From assembly GCF_900096995.1 (NCBI RefSeq), contig NZ_OANT01000002.1, positions 310,001 to 374,000 of the forward strand: a stretch of DNA of 64,000 nt. Reading direction: 5' to 3'. Made by a program: the position numbers and the translations under genes. Below are positions 54,902 through 61,665 of the stretch, in pieces (position 1 is the first letter of the stretch; the number at the start of each line of letters is the position of its first letter). The notes beneath the pieces were generated by a model that was given only the letters and a program-made list of their open reading frames with translations, was not told the DNA's origin and searched no databases. The DNA comes from Acinetobacter puyangensis (GTDB lineage: Bacteria > Pseudomonadota > Gammaproteobacteria > Pseudomonadales > Moraxellaceae).

Positions 54902-55096
54902 CTATTCCTTAAACGTCTCATACAAAGCCTGTTGAACAGCATCAACCCTTGATTTGCAGGCTTTATATGCTTGCATGGATTCTTCAACGATTTTCATCAG
55001 GTTATCAATGTCTGGTTCTTCCTGAGATTCAAGTAGGGCAGCATTTTTCTTTAAAATTTCGTAGCCTTCTTTAAAAGTAAGTTCTTTATTGGTCAT
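54902..55096 (-). CDS. xseB: Exonuclease VII small subunit, XseB
   Basis: 64 residues: FKEGYEILKKNAALLESQEEPDIDNLMKIVEESMQAYKACKSRVDAVQQAL matches the XseB two-helix pattern. It overlaps the upstream xseA gene by 11 bases. XseB binds XseA to form the exonuclease. Its sequence is divergent from textbook XseB, though the pattern is clear. Confidence 0.82.
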   Translation of the reverse strand: MTNKELTFKEGYEILKKNAALLESQEEPDIDNLMKIVEESMQAYKACKSRVDAVQQALYETFKE

Positions 55097-56366
55097 TGTC
55101 GATTACCTTGTTAACTGTTGCTTGGATCTGACCATCTTGCATTTCAATTGAAATATCAGTGCCAGAAATTTGGTGAATTGATCTGATAGCTTTGCCGTTA
55201 CTGCGTACGATTCCATAGCCTTTTGCCAGTACATTTCTAGGATTCTGTAGTAGTGTTTCACGCATTAAGGATTCTACGTTGCTATTAGCGATTTTGATCT
55301 GTTGCTGGGCAAAATAATGTGTCGTACCTTTCATCAACTCCAGGTTTTTGGTTGCCATTGAAATTTGATTTTGGACCACGGTTTTGATTGTACCGATCAA
55401 TTGCTCATTCTTATTCTGGTAATTGGCAATATGATGCTGGGAAAGTAACTTTATGGACTGTATGAAAGTAATGACTTCCTGAGCACGATCAGCGATTTGA
55501 TTGCGTATACCGGCAATTACCTTGCTGGGCGTGTCGAAAGAGCGATGTGCAATTTCATCTAATATTGTCCGGTCTTTCTCATGACCAATGCCGACCCAGA
55601 TTGGCACAGTTCGTTTGCACAATAAAGCGGCAAGGTCATAGTCATTCAGATACGCCAAATCATTGACTGCACCGCCTCCGCGAATAATCACAATCAGGTC
55701 TGGTGGTGTACCATCATAATCTTTTACCCATTGGCGCAAGCCCGAGCTTAAGGACTCAATAATGCTGACAGCAGCTGTATTGCCTTGAAATGTGGCGGAA
55801 TGATATACGAAATGACACACACCGGCTTTATCTAAAGCATCAGCATCTTTTTTGAAATCACCCAAGCCGGCGGCATTTTGTGGAGCAATGACCAAGACAT
55901 TTTGAATATCAAATGGGACAGGGAGAAGCTTATTTTTATTAATTAAACCTTCTTCCGTCAATCGAGCGACAATTTGCTGGTATCGTTTTGCAATATCGCC
56001 GAGTGTAAAACTGGAATCGATGTCCTCAATATTAAGTGAAAATCCATATTGTGGGTCAAATCGTGCTTTGACTTTAATGAGAACGTTCAAATCTTTGGAT
56101 AATTCAATACCGCTTTCACGTTGAAATCTTAAAACAATCTTACTTGTATGTTTCCAGATCGTTGCCCTACAACTTGCAATAACCTTATCTGTATCTTCTT
56201 CTTTTTCTGCTAATTCCAGATAATAATGTCCACCTTTTACACTTAGATTCCGGATCTCGGCTTTAACCCATACAGCTTCATCAAATGAAATCTGAATGAC
56301 TTCCTTAATCGCGCTAAGGTATTCAGTTAATGAGAGTTGTTGATCTGGCATGTGTGTTGATGGCAT
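55086..56366 (-). CDS. xseA: Exonuclease VII large subunit, XseA
   Basis: 426 residues. N-terminal OB-fold (SLTEYLSAIKEVIQISFDEAVWVKAEIRNLSVKGGHYYLEL), then the nuclease domain with IIRGGGAVNDLAYLND, GIGHEKDRTILDEIAHRSFDTPSKVIAG and the C-terminal coiled coil ending in GYGIVRSNG. The RGGG, N-D and GHE-x-D catalytic elements are intact. It digests single-stranded DNA processively from both ends. It is encoded against the phage late strand, with its own promoter region and partner xseB. Confidence 0.92.
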   Translation of the reverse strand: MPSTHMPDQQLSLTEYLSAIKEVIQISFDEAVWVKAEIRNLSVKGGHYYLELAEKEEDTDKVIASCRATIWKHTSKIVLRFQRESGIELSKDLNVLIKVKARFDPQYGFSLNIEDIDSSFTLGDIAKRYQQIVARLTEEGLINKNKLLPVPFDIQNVLVIAPQNAAGLGDFKKDADALDKAGVCHFVYHSATFQGNTAAVSIIESLSSGLRQWVKDYDGTPPDLIVIIRGGGAVNDLAYLNDYDLAALLCKRTVPIWVGIGHEKDRTILDEIAHRSFDTPSKVIAGIRNQIADRAQEVITFIQSIKLLSQHHIANYQNKNEQLIGTIKTVVQNQISMATKNLELMKGTTHYFAQQQIKIANSNVESLMRETLLQNPRNVLAKGYGIVRSNGKAIRSIHQISGTDISIEMQDGQIQATVNKVIDNDQ

Positions 56367-56493: not shown

Positions 56494-58557
56494 GTGCCTT
56501 TTATGGCTATAGGTGATAGTGGTTTACAATATGATAACCAAGGCTTTCTGATTGGTGCGGTTCAGCAAAAAGTTGAAACTATTGATAAGAATATTCTGGA
56601 AATCTTAAAGCTGCTTAGGCATGACACAGTAGAACAAACACAGCGATTTAAGATTAGCCGGTTGCAGCGTGCGATGTATGAAGCTAACTCGGCTAAGAAC
56701 ATTGAAGATATTATAAAAGATGCAACACAAATATTAGAAAATCAGTCTAAACAACAGATCAAAGCCATTTCTAATATGGACTCATCTAAATCTGATCAAA
56801 TTGATCCAGTCCGAAATAATACTAATCAAACTAAACCTGTGGAATCAACAAGAGACAATACTCAACAGTCTGATAGAAAAAGGGACAGTAACGGTCGTTT
56901 TGTTGCTGGTGATGTTCCTGAGAGTGATGAAACTGTAGACAAACGCAATCGTGATGATAAAGGGCGATTTGTCCCTGGCACCTCAACAACAATTTCAAAG
57001 TTTGGCGATATAGTTGGGAAATTTGGACAGGCAGTATCTGGATTAGGTACAGATGCACAAGGTTTTGATCCAACGGTTGATGCAATAAATGAACTAGGTA
57101 CCGTTTTGTCGCCAGTTAAACGAATGGCTGGAATAGTATTTAAGCCTTTGACCGGTTTGGCGAAGATGCGTAAACGTTCTGAACCATTGCCGAAAGAGCA
57201 AACTGATCATAATAAGAAACAACTTAAGATTTTGCAGCGTATCGCAGATCGCACGGGCAATAATCAGGGTGGCTTATTATCCAAACTATTGGGATCGGGT
57301 GGTGGTTTACTTGGCGGATTGTTGGGTAAAGGAGGAAAAGTATTATCCAAGATATTAAAGTTTGGTAAAGGATTACCAATTGTTGGTGGATTGCTCAGTG
57401 CCATAAGTTTGATGGATTGGGGGGATAAATCTACTGAACAGAAAGGAGGTGCAATAGGCTCTATTGGGGGCGGTGTTGTTGGAGGTGTTTTAGGATCGGT
57501 TCTTGGTCCAGCCGGTACAATTGTAGGTGCTGGTGTTGGTGCTTGGATTGGTGACAAGCTGGGAACAACAGTTGCACCTTATTTCAAGAATTGGACTGAT
57601 TCTTTGATCAAATCAGATTTAGGTCAAAAAATCGTATCTATCTGGGATGGATTTGTAGATACAATTTCTGGGTGGTTTGATAAGGCTTGGGGCGGACTAA
57701 AATCTGGTGCTGGTGCAATTGGAGGTATGTTTAATGGTGCCTGGCAAACTGTTAAAAATATAGGCAATAAAGGACTGGATACCATTGGATTTAATGACTA
57801 TAAGGCTCTAGAGGGAGGAAATGCCCAAGAAAAGACCATGGCTTTATTGAGACAACATGAAGGTTTTCGTGAAAAAGCATATTGGGATGTGAATGCATAT
57901 CGAACTGGTTATGGCAGTGATACTGTAACAGATAAGAATGGAAATGTTCGTAAAGTTACTTCTAATACAAAGGTTTCTAGGGAAGATGCTGAGAGAGACT
58001 TGTTAAGACGTTCAAAAATTTTTGCAGCCCAAGCAAGGCGTAAAGTTGGTGGTGAAAATTGGGATAAGCTACCAGATGATGCGAAAGCAGCTTTGACTTC
58101 GGTTGCCTACAATTACGGAAGTTTGCCAAAAAGTGTTACTAAAGCTGTTCAAACTGGGGACTTAAAAAGAATTTCTAACTCTGTTCAATCTCTAGGTGCA
58201 CATAATAAAGGCATTAATAGAAAAAGACGTAACCACGAGTCTTTATTGATTCATAATGCTAAAGATAGTTCTGTTTCTACATCTCAAGTTCAGCATGGTT
58301 TATTGGCATCGACAAATAAAACAAATACTCCATTTGTTGCAAAGGCAGATACTATGCTTGCGACTGCTAACCCAGTAAATTTGAATAACCATACAGCTAA
58401 AGCAAATACACCTAAGATTGAAACAGCCAAAACTAGATTAAATTCTACCGATCCACAAAAAGTATTGGTGGTAAATCAGTCAGATGGTAGTATTACCCAA
58501 AATTTAGGCGATCGTGCTTTAGCACACGCAATTACAGGGGGAATTGGGGAAAGATGA
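56494..58557 (+). CDS. Large virion-type lysozyme protein, 687 aa
   Basis: The C-terminal region (about 445-590) is a phage lysozyme (GH24-like): LLRQHEGFREKAYWDVNAYRTGYGSD with Glu at about 455 and the downstream D/T set, and ALTSVAYNYG. Ahead lie a coiled-coil N-terminus, two RDxxGRFVxG motifs at about 130 and 153, and Gly-rich hydrophobic stretches (270-360) resembling membrane-penetrating virion proteins. It probably degrades peptidoglycan during DNA entry or as an internal virion enzyme. Confidence 0.75.
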   Translation: MPFMAIGDSGLQYDNQGFLIGAVQQKVETIDKNILEILKLLRHDTVEQTQRFKISRLQRAMYEANSAKNIEDIIKDATQILENQSKQQIKAISNMDSSKSDQIDPVRNNTNQTKPVESTRDNTQQSDRKRDSNGRFVAGDVPESDETVDKRNRDDKGRFVPGTSTTISKFGDIVGKFGQAVSGLGTDAQGFDPTVDAINELGTVLSPVKRMAGIVFKPLTGLAKMRKRSEPLPKEQTDHNKKQLKILQRIADRTGNNQGGLLSKLLGSGGGLLGGLLGKGGKVLSKILKFGKGLPIVGGLLSAISLMDWGDKSTEQKGGAIGSIGGGVVGGVLGSVLGPAGTIVGAGVGAWIGDKLGTTVAPYFKNWTDSLIKSDLGQKIVSIWDGFVDTISGWFDKAWGGLKSGAGAIGGMFNGAWQTVKNIGNKGLDTIGFNDYKALEGGNAQEKTMALLRQHEGFREKAYWDVNAYRTGYGSDTVTDKNGNVRKVTSNTKVSREDAERDLLRRSKIFAAQARRKVGGENWDKLPDDAKAALTSVAYNYGSLPKSVTKAVQTGDLKRISNSVQSLGAHNKGINRKRRNHESLLIHNAKDSSVSTSQVQHGLLASTNKTNTPFVAKADTMLATANPVNLNNHTAKANTPKIETAKTRLNSTDPQKVLVVNQSDGSITQNLGDRALAHAITGGIGER

Positions 58558-59471
58558 ATAAAAAAATACTTTTAGGTTTGATATTGGGTTGCTTAAATTC
58601 ATTTGCGGTTGGGAGCTCAAATGATATTGACCAGAGATTTTATAATAATATTTTATCAAATTTAGATAATCCATATAGAATCATTACAATCAAAAAAGAA
58701 TCTTTAAACAATGTTGAAAGAACTGTAATAAATTATGCTATTCGGAACTTTAAAAAGGATTTTGTAGAGTGTAATGGTAAATCATATATTCGTGGTATAG
58801 ATAAGGTTTATTATGTTGTTGATTATAAGCCAACAATTTTATTTCGAACATTTCCTACAATCAATAAAGCTGATAAGTTGAATGGCGTGGTGTGGCGCGG
58901 GGATATATTAATATTCTTATCAGGTAATAAAGGAGAAGGAGTAGCCCAAGAAGTAAAAGCTACCGATCATCAGTCTTCTAAATGGCAAGATATGAATAGA
59001 CTTAGGTTGAGTCAATTTGGAAATTTTGAAGATGTGTATAGAGGAACCTTAGTTTTTTATAAAAATGAAATACGTACATATTATGGGGATGGGATAGGTA
59101 ACACTAAATCTAATGATAATAATCAGTTGGTATGTTCAGATATTAATCAACTACTGATGCCTGAGCAAAAGCATGAAACTAATATTGAAAGTGAAAAAAA
59201 ATTAAATTTGGATGGTAAAGTCAGCTGGAGAACTTACCCAAAAATAAGGCTTTCTCAGCCAGATTTATTAGGCGTAACAAACAGTAATGTGATAGTTCGT
59301 GTTGATGTTGACGTAAAGGGGCGAATAAGTGCAAAAATTCTTGAAACCAGTGGCGATGATCAGGTTGATAAAAAAATTGTAAAAGCTGTTGAGGCTGCAA
59401 AATTTAATAAATACACTGAAAATGGAGAGCCTGCAGCATTTTATATAGAATTACCATTTAATTTAAGTTAA
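58554..59471 (+). CDS. Exported protein with TonB-C-like C-terminal domain, 305 aa
   Basis: A signal peptide (ILLGLILGCLNSFAVGSS) precedes a domain of unknown type (about 30-200). The C-terminal 80 residues (VNIVRVDVDVKGRISAKILETSGDD...AVEAAKFNKY...FYIELPFNL) follow the TonB C-terminal fold pattern. It overlaps the lysozyme gene by 4 bases. TonB-C domains contact outer-membrane receptors or peptidoglycan-associated proteins; a phage role is unknown. Confidence 0.65.
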   Translation: MNKKILLGLILGCLNSFAVGSSNDIDQRFYNNILSNLDNPYRIITIKKESLNNVERTVINYAIRNFKKDFVECNGKSYIRGIDKVYYVVDYKPTILFRTFPTINKADKLNGVVWRGDILIFLSGNKGEGVAQEVKATDHQSSKWQDMNRLRLSQFGNFEDVYRGTLVFYKNEIRTYYGDGIGNTKSNDNNQLVCSDINQLLMPEQKHETNIESEKKLNLDGKVSWRTYPKIRLSQPDLLGVTNSNVIVRVDVDVKGRISAKILETSGDDQVDKKIVKAVEAAKFNKYTENGEPAAFYIELPFNLS

Positions 59472-59791
59472 GAGATGGCAAAGCAATAACCTAGCTTAAA
59501 ACTGATGTTTGATTGAAGCTGGAAAATCAGTTTCAAGCCAAAATTTCATTGCTAAGAGTGGATATGTTAAATTTGAGGATTCATTTATTAATTAAGAGAA
59601 AGTTATCTTGGTTTAGTCACTCAGAAAACTCTTAGTTTTGTTATAATATAGTAATTTTAAATTTCTAGCTTTATTTTTTCAATTACAAATAAAATAGCAG
59701 GTAGGCAAACCATTCCCGCTTAGTCGCTGTTAAAAAGCTAGAAATTTAAACCTATGGGATATCCACAGGTGCAATTTTGATAGGGTGTTAA
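59472..59791. other. Gene-free 320-bp region holding a 17-bp inverted repeat
   Basis: No supported open frame. A perfect inverted repeat (59656-59672 and 59734-59750) encloses 61 bases. The first 180 bases are AT-rich with no other structure visible. The region probably carries the promoter of the DUF4365 gene. Confidence 0.6.
59656..59750. repeat. Perfect 17-bp inverted repeat upstream of the DUF4365 gene
   Basis: TTTAAATTTCTAGCTTT at 59656-59672 and AAAGCTAGAAATTTAAA at 59734-59750 are exact complements with a 61-base interior. The interior ends in a relatively GC-rich segment (CATTCCCGCTTAGTCGC). It could be transcribed into a folded RNA or act as DNA. Confidence 0.7.
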
Positions 59792-60811
59792 ATGACTTCT
59801 GAAAGCAATAGAACCGGATCTCTTGGAACGAACTATGTGGAGAAAGTCCTACTCAAATGGGGATGGGGATTTCAACCTATTTCACAAGAAAATGATGATG
59901 GATTTGACGGCATTATATATATCCGATCGAAACATTCGAATCCAAAAGATCCTGAGAATCAAAGTAAGCAATCATGGGCTTTCACAGGTGGGTTAATTCA
60001 TGTACAAGTGAAAAGTGGAAATAGCTATATCAGTAGCCAAAATAGAAACGAGATAAAACTTAAGATAAATAAACTAGCTCAAAAGAAAGAAATATGGAAA
60101 AAATCTCCAATTCCATGTGTTCTAATATTTTTTTTTGAAGATGAAAATGAGAATGAATATTCATATTGGGCTGATCTAAAATCAAATGAATCATATTTTG
60201 AGGGTAGTAGTAGCATTATCAGTATCCCCAAAAAAAATAGATTTTCAAAATCACCAGAATGCAAAGGTCCTTTAAGACGCATAGCAAGGAAACAAGGGGA
60301 TTATAGTGATAAACATTTGATTGATATGGTAAAATCAGATACCTTAAATAGTATTTTGCCATCAAGTCTTAAAGGGAATATAAACTCCTCTTTAAAAAGC
60401 AAAGCTATTGAGTTTTACCAAAAATGGAAATTGAATGGTGCAATTAACCCTTACTTTGGTCAAGTAATAATTAACAGGACCGGATGGAGTCATATCACTC
60501 GCAAAGGCCGCCCTATAGCAAGAATTGAAGCCAGTTTTAATTTGTTACCTATTGCAGCTAGAATTATAAATGATGTATCCACATGGCGTATGCTAACGCC
60601 CATGAGAAGATATCAAAATAGAAAGGATGGTTATGTTTGTTATACAGATTTTATTGGATTAACAGCAAAGGTTGTTTTAAGAATGAGAAATTCCACCGAA
60701 GTTATGGTTGTATTAAAAAGAGAAACAAGATTCAAAGAAAGCGAAGGTGAAAATGATCCTGAAACCAGACTCTGGTTTTATACAGTTTACGAGCCAGGAC
60801 GTGGGAAGTAA
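59792..60811 (+). CDS. DUF4365-type nuclease-like protein with C-terminal PBECR-like domain
   Basis: 339 residues. The N-terminal domain has RTGSLGTNYVEKVL, NDDGFDGIIYI (Asp 36/39) and GLIHVQVKSG (Q72-x-K74), the DUF4365/PD-(D/E)XK pattern. After residue 215, NPYFGQVIINRTGWSHITRKG and later VVLKRETRF and WFYTVYEPGRGK resemble phage barnase/EndoU/colicin-type RNase domains (PBECR), though weakly. A fusion of the two suggests a toxin or defence effector. It is flanked by two structured elements and is separate from the phage operon. Confidence 0.6.
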   Translation: MTSESNRTGSLGTNYVEKVLLKWGWGFQPISQENDDGFDGIIYIRSKHSNPKDPENQSKQSWAFTGGLIHVQVKSGNSYISSQNRNEIKLKINKLAQKKEIWKKSPIPCVLIFFFEDENENEYSYWADLKSNESYFEGSSSIISIPKKNRFSKSPECKGPLRRIARKQGDYSDKHLIDMVKSDTLNSILPSSLKGNINSSLKSKAIEFYQKWKLNGAINPYFGQVIINRTGWSHITRKGRPIARIEASFNLLPIAARIINDVSTWRMLTPMRRYQNRKDGYVCYTDFIGLTAKVVLRMRNSTEVMVVLKRETRFKESEGENDPETRLWFYTVYEPGRGK

Positions 60812-60814
60812 ATT

Positions 60815-60909
60815 GCGGCGGTACAATCGCGCTCAGACTGCCCCAGACGTGATATATAATCACCGGTACCAGAAAAGGTCTGGCTCCTCTATTGTGCGTG
60901 TACCGCCTT
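60815..60909. ncRNA. Structured RNA candidate downstream of the DUF4365 gene
   Basis: GGCGGTAC (60817-60824) pairs with GTACCGCC (60900-60907). Inside, CCAGAC pairs with GTCTGG and GTGAT with ATCAC. The GC-rich composition contrasts with the AT-rich surroundings. The layout recalls the C4 antisense RNA of phages P1/P7, but I cannot confirm it. The strand is not decidable. Confidence 0.55.
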
Positions 60910-61200
60910 TGCAAATAATACTATAAAACTCTAAAGTGTCAATGAGTTAATTTGATTATCAAAGGTTTAAGTGGTGGTGAAAATCCACCAACCACACCAA
61001 ATTTAAAGTCCGTACTCATATGCGGGCTTTTTTATTATTGGAAAAAGGAATTTAGGCTTTTAAATGGTTGAAAGATATTTCTTGAGTCCAGTTAAAAACA
61101 TCTAATATTTCGTGTTATTTCACTGAAATTTATATAATATAAAGTTCAAATATTTAGATATTTTACAAATTTTCATTTAAAAACGTATAGTGAGATAGTT
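60910..61200. other. Gene-free region with a hairpin and terminator
   Basis: Contains GGTGG/CCACC hairpin near 60973-60989, the terminator at 61005-61036, and then AT-rich sequence likely holding the promoter of the GIY-YIG gene. No open frame supported. Confidence 0.5.
61005..61036 (+). terminator. Terminator between the DUF4365 and GIY-YIG genes
   Basis: AAAGTCCGTA pairs with TATGCGGGCTTT (G-U pairs included), followed by TTTATTATT. Confidence 0.7.
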
Positions 61201-61665
61201 GTGAAAATAAAATTAGATTGGCAAGAGCCATTGCAATTAGGTTCTTTTACAGATGATGTAAATTACCATGATGAATTGGAGTTAAATGAGATTCCAGAAT
61301 CAGCAGGCATATATATTTTTTATCGTCAGCATGGTGAAACTCAACAAGCATTGTATGTTGGTCAGGCACAAAATTTAAGAAGCCGATTAAAACAACAATT
61401 TAAGTCTTTAGAGTTAATGAAACACATCAAAAATTCTAAAAAAGGTTCAAAACACCTTGTTTTTGCATTATTAAAAACTCGTTCATCAAATTTAGTGCAT
61501 GCTTTAAATCAGGCAGAGCGTGGACTTATTACACATTATATGGAAGAAAATAAACATGATTTATTTAATAAACGTGGTCTTTATGAAGAATATGATTTAG
61601 TAGAATCCATAGGAGAAAATGTACAGCCTCTTATAAACATTGAACTATGGGTCTACGCTAAATAA
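61201..61665 (+). CDS. GIY-YIG nuclease-domain protein, 154 aa
   Basis: GIY-YIG core: ESAGIYIFYRQ (GIY at about residues 36-38), LYVGQAQNLRSRLKQQF (YVG plus catalytic Arg) and a helix with conserved Glu in QAERGLITHY. GTG start with only a weak ribosome site. Single-domain GIY-YIG proteins act as homing-type or structure-specific nucleases. It stands alone with its own upstream region, so it is probably an inserted gene. Confidence 0.8.
   Translation: MKIKLDWQEPLQLGSFTDDVNYHDELELNEIPESAGIYIFYRQHGETQQALYVGQAQNLRSRLKQQFKSLELMKHIKNSKKGSKHLVFALLKTRSSNLVHALNQAERGLITHYMEENKHDLFNKRGLYEEYDLVESIGENVQPLINIELWVYAK

Follow-up and report, generated by a model that had tools for sequence, protein, structure and literature searches.

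Does the prophage region of Acinetobacter puyangensis that we analysed carry a self-contained cargo gene for toxicity or defence, and is the folded sequence behind that gene an RNA partner of its product? The window, by which we mean the whole 64,000-nucleotide stretch, contains an open reading frame (ORF), 59792–60811 on the plus strand, that encodes a protein of 339 amino acids with two recognizable parts:

59792–60811, plus strand: protein-coding gene; DUF4365/PD-(D/E)XK domain (residues about 10–165) and C-terminal GWxHITR domain (about 195–339) with a BECR-like signature.
60371–60808, plus strand: C-terminal domain (146 codons); invariant H234, R237 and R240, Ser/Thr 331 in the last strand, ending in WFYTVYEPGRGK.

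The same protein (100% identity) is encoded by a viral contig in IMG/VR (L005), and another genome of the genus (G127) carries the gene on a 22,210-base contig. Nine of the ten window ORFs scanned match phage families (PHROGs), including replication, methyltransferase, RusA-like, lysin/endolysin and tail fibre families. Among other genes in the region, an ORF with a TonB C-terminal domain (58554–59471, plus strand) sits between the phage lysin and the nuclease gene and has no PHROG match at E ≤ 1e-3, an ORF with a GIY-YIG domain (61201–61665, plus strand; Pfam E 1.2e-5) lies immediately past the terminator-like hairpin described below, and an exonuclease-like ORF (55086–56366, minus strand; phrog_9454, E 5.6e-31) occupies the opposite strand within the phage region.

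The window ORF encodes a DUF4365 nuclease domain of the PD-(D/E)XK type, followed in the same chain by an unclassified C-terminal domain. Residues 10–154 match DUF4365 (PF14280) in Pfam at E 3.6e-22, with 79.3 bits against a gathering cut-off of 24.3, and the profile is matched by all 11 aligned members at E ≤ 1. D35, D36, D39, Q72 and K74 are invariant among the 11 aligned sequences, the window's included, which bears out the original prediction of a DUF4365 nuclease-like domain with D36/D39 and Q72-x-K74; the front half carries the D...D and Q/E-x-K signature of PD-(D/E)XK enzymes on the corresponding fold. For a DUF4365 protein that forms a DNA-degrading complex when activated, Q62 and K64 have been given as potential active-site residues (PMC10810196); the window protein also has this Q-x-K pair. 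A model of the full-length protein (pLDDT 78, pTM 0.53) finds its best structural match in the SPARDA complex (Foldseek E 2.8e-11). The DUF4365 half superposes on the SPARDA nuclease with Z 18.0 and an rmsd of 2.7 Å over 145 aligned residues, and Hjc also matches its fold (Z about 10), so that the structural comparison proposed for this half did return a nuclease fold. The likeness to SPARDA consists of this N-terminal domain, the Q-x-K pair and the superposition at Z 18. Unlike SPARDA, the window protein has no Argonaute or APAZ match in Pfam, no Argonaute-type match was seen among the neighbouring genes scanned by Pfam (five), PADLOC (two) and PHROGs (ten), and the C-terminal domain and the RNA are different. 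The PADLOC match to Aga_REase, an Argonaute-associated nuclease, is limited to residues 3–148. A second PADLOC model, PDC-M02A, matches nine of 11 members (best E 8.9e-10) and shares a DUF4365-like domain with them, but it covers only residues 6–153 of the window protein, and PADLOC output gives no RNA.

The back half is probably a BECR-like RNase, as judged from its motif and from a predicted fold that is weakly BECR-like. Conservation here is strong, with the motifs RxGWxHITRxxR and S..LL and a terminus of the W-F-Y-[ST]-V-Y-E type. The window's C-terminal half matches no Pfam family at E ≤ 10, and no PBECR family appears among the Pfam matches listed at that threshold for 11 C-terminal halves, in a search whose filters remove most matches above about 0.1. 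Modelled alone, the domain is predicted with a pLDDT of 89 and a pTM of 0.82 as helices followed by four strands. Foldseek found no solved structure at E ≤ 1e-3 and at most weak matches among viral models (best E 1.5e-3), and sequence searches of solved structures gave no relative among the matches listed. Among Foldseek's best 1,000 chains, 6cp9_E is the only one to superpose at Z ≥ 5 (Z 5.1, 4.3 Å, 98 residues aligned; the next reaches 3.8), and the superposition tool warns that a Z under 8 may reflect just a common arrangement. 6CP9 is a complex of a CDI toxin that is a BECR tRNase (PMC9086364); chain E is the candidate toxin chain, its residue numbers 143–261 spanning the active-site numbers listed for the toxin. 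BECR RNases have been described as carrying a His in their N-terminal helix and, in strand 4, a Ser or Thr (PMC5512222); H234 and T/S331 fit this description in all 12 aligned sequences. The domain thus resembles BECR/PBECR RNases (CdiA-CT Kp342, phage polyvalent proteins) in its helix with an invariant His, its four C-terminal strands and the Ser/Thr in the last of them, and differs from them in its lack of a Pfam PBECR match, its weak Z of 5.1, its fusion to DUF4365 and its pairing with an RNA. The earlier suggestion of a PBECR-like C-terminus therefore stands as to the motif and a weak fold match, and does not extend to a PBECR family match in Pfam; the broader claim of a nuclease joined to an RNase-like half agrees with both sets of results.

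Behind the gene lies the feature that sets this locus apart, an element of about 100 nucleotides that begins at the stop codon of the nuclease gene:

60813–60912, plus strand: conserved, predicted structured RNA element; 98.3 bits with covariance model R1, the window being among the sequences from which R1 was built.
60817–60907, plus strand: closing stem, arms 60817–60825 and 60899–60907, continued by an inner stem 60828–60832/60894–60898.
60838–60887, plus strand: three inner arms, namely a hairpin 60838–60846 and arms 60849–60863 and 60865–60887, with conserved joints around CTCAGACT and CCAGAC.

A GC-rich multi-stem structure right after the stop had been predicted, and the segment 60809–60920 does fold at -38.7 kcal/mol (z -4.1), a stability reached by none of 200 shuffles. 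In an eight-sequence alignment, 17 of the 32 predicted pairs have changed on both sides, compared to 2–5 when the structure is slid along the alignment as a control, and 92.4% of the cells in the element alignment pair, against an average of 77.5% in shuffles (0 of 500 reach the observed value). The joint columns CTCAG.CT and CCAG.C are invariant. Nine distinct members score 70–98 bits with R1; because eight of the nine were used in building the model, only L099 (69.9 bits) is independent of it. Element identity equals or exceeds gene DNA identity in 11 of the 13 pairs compared, the exceptions being the window with L002 (81 versus 85%) and the window with L099 (45 versus 50%, in an unstructured alignment); for the two pairs that involve L106, only the DNA figures are usable. 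The 150-nucleotide flanks are 13–54% identical, except that the closely related L009 and L011 have 3' flanks 68% identical. A comparison with Rfam 15 gave nothing at the window element up to E 5, and nothing above the gathering score at the elements of 12 related loci. Folding energies leave the strand undecided (plus -32.5, minus -33.8 kcal/mol); the plus strand is suggested by the position of the element and by two G-C pairs that change to G-U. Taken at the level of sequence, a putative RNA family behind the gene is well supported.

Gene and element also occur together. Among the relatives recovered by protein search, all that share about 42% identity or more carry the element directly behind the stop codon. 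The carriers include an Acinetobacter locus (L002), an Escherichia coli prophage (L006/L017), L007/L008, L009/L010 and L011, a Salmonella plasmid (L019), a virus from a metagenome (L099/L078) and a betaproteobacterial metagenome-assembled genome (MAG; L023), the contig of which covers just the last 41 residues of the protein. The 3' element, for which a covariance search had been recommended, recurs behind relatives in Acinetobacter, E. coli, the Salmonella plasmid, the betaproteobacterial MAG and viral contigs. Among 5,426 E. coli genomes, a query of gene plus element (L009, 1290–2420) was found in 21, each time over at least 80% of its length, and the element alone, by blastn, was likewise found in 21; the 20 element genomes listed are all among the 21 that have both. 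One E. coli copy has an ORF annotated as truncated with the same element present. In the Salmonella plasmid copy (L019, 5001–6144) the ORF is interrupted and the RNA element kept, and in the betaproteobacterial MAG a Guanidine-I riboswitch (L023, 1154–1260) lies about 900 nucleotides downstream of the element. An RNA partner for the gene had been proposed from the window alone, and the conservation, covariation and co-occurrence of the 3' element support this proposal.

Relatives were found in 3 of 149 genomes in the genus search (one copy broken by an insertion sequence, IS), in 2 of 293 in the order search, in 2 of 369 in the class search (the other a weak, partial match) and in 6 of 398 in the phylum search (the other five matching in the DUF4365 half alone), each count including the window's own genome, and a search of one family gave 5 of 163, two of them full-length. 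R1 found only the window copy in the 369 class genomes. Two narrow peptide patterns, run against contigs of 84,980 species, returned two loci. A DNA pattern for the element picked out 53 stretches of viral contigs, of which 49 were tested by R1 and yielded the known members and L078, the remaining four being contigs already known. A short-pattern match, L013, was not confirmed as a member by R1. A pattern for the second clade returned L111, a contig known before, and L110, which lacks both an element and an upstream relative and is taken as a chance match. No relative appeared in tblastn of phage records, and blastn of the window DNA against phages and plasmids found nothing.

Examination of the gene neighborhoods places the gene on mobile elements. 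In L007 it runs against the direction of the adjacent genes, with tail-completion/tail-terminator genes on one side and baseplate-assembly genes on the other, which, judged from gene order, is the typical layout of a moron. In L009 and L011 it directly follows an integrase, in E. coli it sits between yfdR and a prophage integrase, the remote type in E. coli belongs to a prophage that also encodes baseplate and tail-fibre proteins, and the Salmonella and Rhizobium copies are plasmid-borne. These prophage, plasmid and integrase-side positions fit a defence or toxin cargo and are in keeping with the self-contained moron that had been proposed.

For the distinct loci, more distant relatives included, we asked whether a perfect stem has its 5' arm near the stop codon and its partner 65–150 nucleotides further on, compared with GC-matched controls from 468 other 3' ends. 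Of the 19 distinct loci, a set that excludes the near-duplicates L008, L010 and L017, 13 have a clear stop-anchored stem, three are ambiguous and three lack a convincing one; the boundary between clear (at most 4/126) and ambiguous was set after the scores were known. The clear loci are the nine model members, each with 0–1 controls as strong out of 117–164, together with L082 (1/164), L106 (1/181), L085 (0/207) and L102 (4/126). L084 (27/212), L003 (4/33) and L101 (45/164) are ambiguous, and L100 (83/199), L103 (67/149) and L083 (159/211) have no support. A first metric, duplex energy with 114 controls, made the close members stand out and the most distant not (2–18 controls as strong); it was replaced because DUF4365 proteins with other C-termini can score equally. 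A similar stop-anchored stem occurs in at least one alphaproteobacterial relative. L082 and L106 share 96% identity in the element, 87% in the gene DNA and 37% in the 3' flank. L101 and L082 have a core in common, with several stem changes that keep pairing and several outer pairs of the L082 stem broken. The relative of L103 type (about 24% identity) is found in 2 of the 5,426 E. coli genomes, where the element is unsupported, and the gene copy in L003/L004 (G096) is split by an IS-like transposase insertion and has no clear 3' element. R1 was run on 15 loci and matched none: nine are remote relatives with an intact gene, one is the IS-broken L003, and in the other five DUF4365 is joined to a different C-terminus. 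These results do not show the RNA to be a single family across all clades.

The window also holds signals on either side of the gene and its element:

59656–59672 and 59734–59750, no strand: perfect 17-bp inverted repeat, arms 61 nucleotides apart, private to the locus.
61005–61030, plus strand: terminator-like hairpin with a T run, at which the transcript may end.

The upstream repeat is present as predicted, and 59640–59765 folds with z -3.7 against dinucleotide shuffles. None of 13 relatives has an inverted repeat of more than 8 bp within 250 nucleotides upstream, and among 29 genomes the stretch matched once, as a single copy in its own genome; the one plasmid match, over 23% of the query at E 2e-3, appears fortuitous. 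We therefore rejected the repeat as a part of the module, and with it the idea of a gene bracketed by two structured elements, the 3' element alone being conserved. As for the predicted terminator further down, a stem with a T run is there, but its count is weak: two terminator-like sites occur in the region, and shuffles give an expectation of 1.0. None lies between ORF and RNA. Promoter-like sites (six on both strands, 6.8 expected) are no more frequent than chance.

What might such a pair do? Our preferred reading, to which we assign a probability of roughly 0.48, is a two-part protein–RNA cargo module: RNA derived from the message's 3' end would bind and restrain a dual nuclease. We infer that the element is transcribed as RNA, and the binding, inhibition, trigger and role in phage defence that follow are likewise inferred. 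One transcript would comprise the nuclease gene and, at its 3' end, the folded RNA of about 100 nucleotides. The C-terminal BECR-like half would release or recognize this RNA, and the RNA, bound to that half, would keep the enzyme, DNase-like in front and RNase-like behind, inactive. Infection by another phage could disturb transcription, translation or RNA stability; a short-lived RNA would then be lost, and the nuclease would attack nucleic acids and stop the infected cell.

Restraint by RNA is preferred by analogy with type III toxin–antitoxin systems and with AbiF/RCd22. In ToxIN and AvcID, a toxic enzyme and a structured RNA that neutralizes it share one locus, often linked to phage defence. 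ToxI lies upstream of its toxin, in repeats, with a terminator before the toxin gene. In the window, by contrast, the RNA is downstream of the stop codon, in single copy, without a terminator-like site in between or a T run of its own behind it, and the protein is a DUF4365–BECR-like fusion; the module would, on our best reading, resemble a type III system turned round. This order also counts against our preference, since a promoter shared with the gene would not make a downstream RNA in excess, unlike the arrangement of type III systems. Also unfavourable are the near-equal folding energies of the two strands, the promoter-like sites at chance level, R1's lack of matches among the remote elements, the six loci without a clear stem and the weak match of the C-terminal fold. 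AbiF of a Clostridioides difficile prophage is a toxic protein neutralized by RCd22, a non-coding RNA of about 100 nucleotides (PMC12373285). Both cases are prophage-borne and pair a protein with an RNA of that size; they differ in that AbiF belongs to the Abi_2/AbiD/F family and RCd22 lies upstream with its own promoter and terminator.

The best of the alternatives is control in cis, in which the protein would bind or cut the 3' structure of its mRNA and so regulate its own message, with no free inhibitory RNA. In the 13 clear loci the start of the closing stem falls at -3 to +5 nucleotides relative to the end of the stop codon; such fixed spacing points to a role linked with the message itself or with processing from it, and in L099, L019 and L023 the stop codon overlaps the stem, so that termination and folding would compete. 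An RNase-like C-terminal half suits such control as well. The conserved internal joints (CTCAG.CT, CCAG.C) nevertheless exceed the needs of a simple stability hairpin, and we consider this reading doubtful, if worth keeping in view.

A bolder form of RNA control builds on the same geometry. A closing stem that starts at the stop codon would have its 5' arm unfolded by finishing ribosomes; the folded state could thus signal whether the gene is being translated, and a phage that arrests translation might act as the trigger. In the best-supported clade the RNA is predicted to be four-way and cloverleaf-like with a long closing stem, and may therefore mimic the tRNA substrate of a BECR tRNase. That the locus represents a new class of RNA-controlled dual nuclease, with DNase and RNase halves held by a tRNA-mimicking RNA cut from the 3' end of their own message and released upon translation arrest, is on the whole unlikely.

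The RNA might instead be an activating cofactor, sensor or guide scaffold, with the protein inactive alone and cutting only in the presence of RNA and target, just as SPARDA requires both a guide and a target. The DUF4365 half resembles the SPARDA nuclease domain, and RNA-guided recognition activates a DUF4365–APAZ/Argonaute complex (PMC10810196). Against this, the Argonaute-associated PADLOC match ends at residue 148, Argonaute and APAZ are missing from the Pfam matches, and inspection by eye of the nine aligned elements revealed no variable guide-like stretch, which leaves a cofactor role with rather poor prospects.

Even less probable is an element that acts as DNA and travels with the gene, such as a single-stranded recombination hairpin of the kind found in gene cassettes, or a replication or binding site. 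It would suit a mobile cargo gene whose similarity to its relatives falls off beyond the element, and folding does not settle the strand. The attC sites of integrons carry the boxes RYYYAAC and GTTRRRY; in the window element (60811–60920) neither GTT nor AAC is found by eye, and hence neither box. No solitary copy of the element was seen in the 5,426 E. coli genomes (blastn) or the 369 class genomes (R1), and the two G-C to G-U changes favour a plus-strand RNA. It is very improbable that the element is an ordinary stability structure in the 3' UTR of an orphan nuclease gene: strong 3' structures are common and this one is directly 3' of an ORF, but its sequence and structure are kept while protein identity drops to about 42–78% and the flanks diverge, and no long T run follows the stem, so that it is not an intrinsic terminator.

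In the open-licence papers searched we found no description of an architecture of DUF4365, a BECR-like domain and an RNA, an earlier account elsewhere being possible, and four protein accessions of the gene's family are absent from them. Our results link an undescribed, putative structured RNA family to a nuclease fusion on prophages and plasmids of gamma- and betaproteobacteria. Annotation based on proteins only misses the RNA partners of toxins and defence nucleases, and the module can be tested with one small locus. That a folded RNA appears to have travelled with its gene between distant bacteria suggests a module for defence or toxicity, previously unrecognized, that is under RNA control. 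Should the RNA hold back or direct the nuclease, ToxIN, AbiF, retrons and CRISPR would be joined by another immunity module controlled by RNA and distinct from all of these types.
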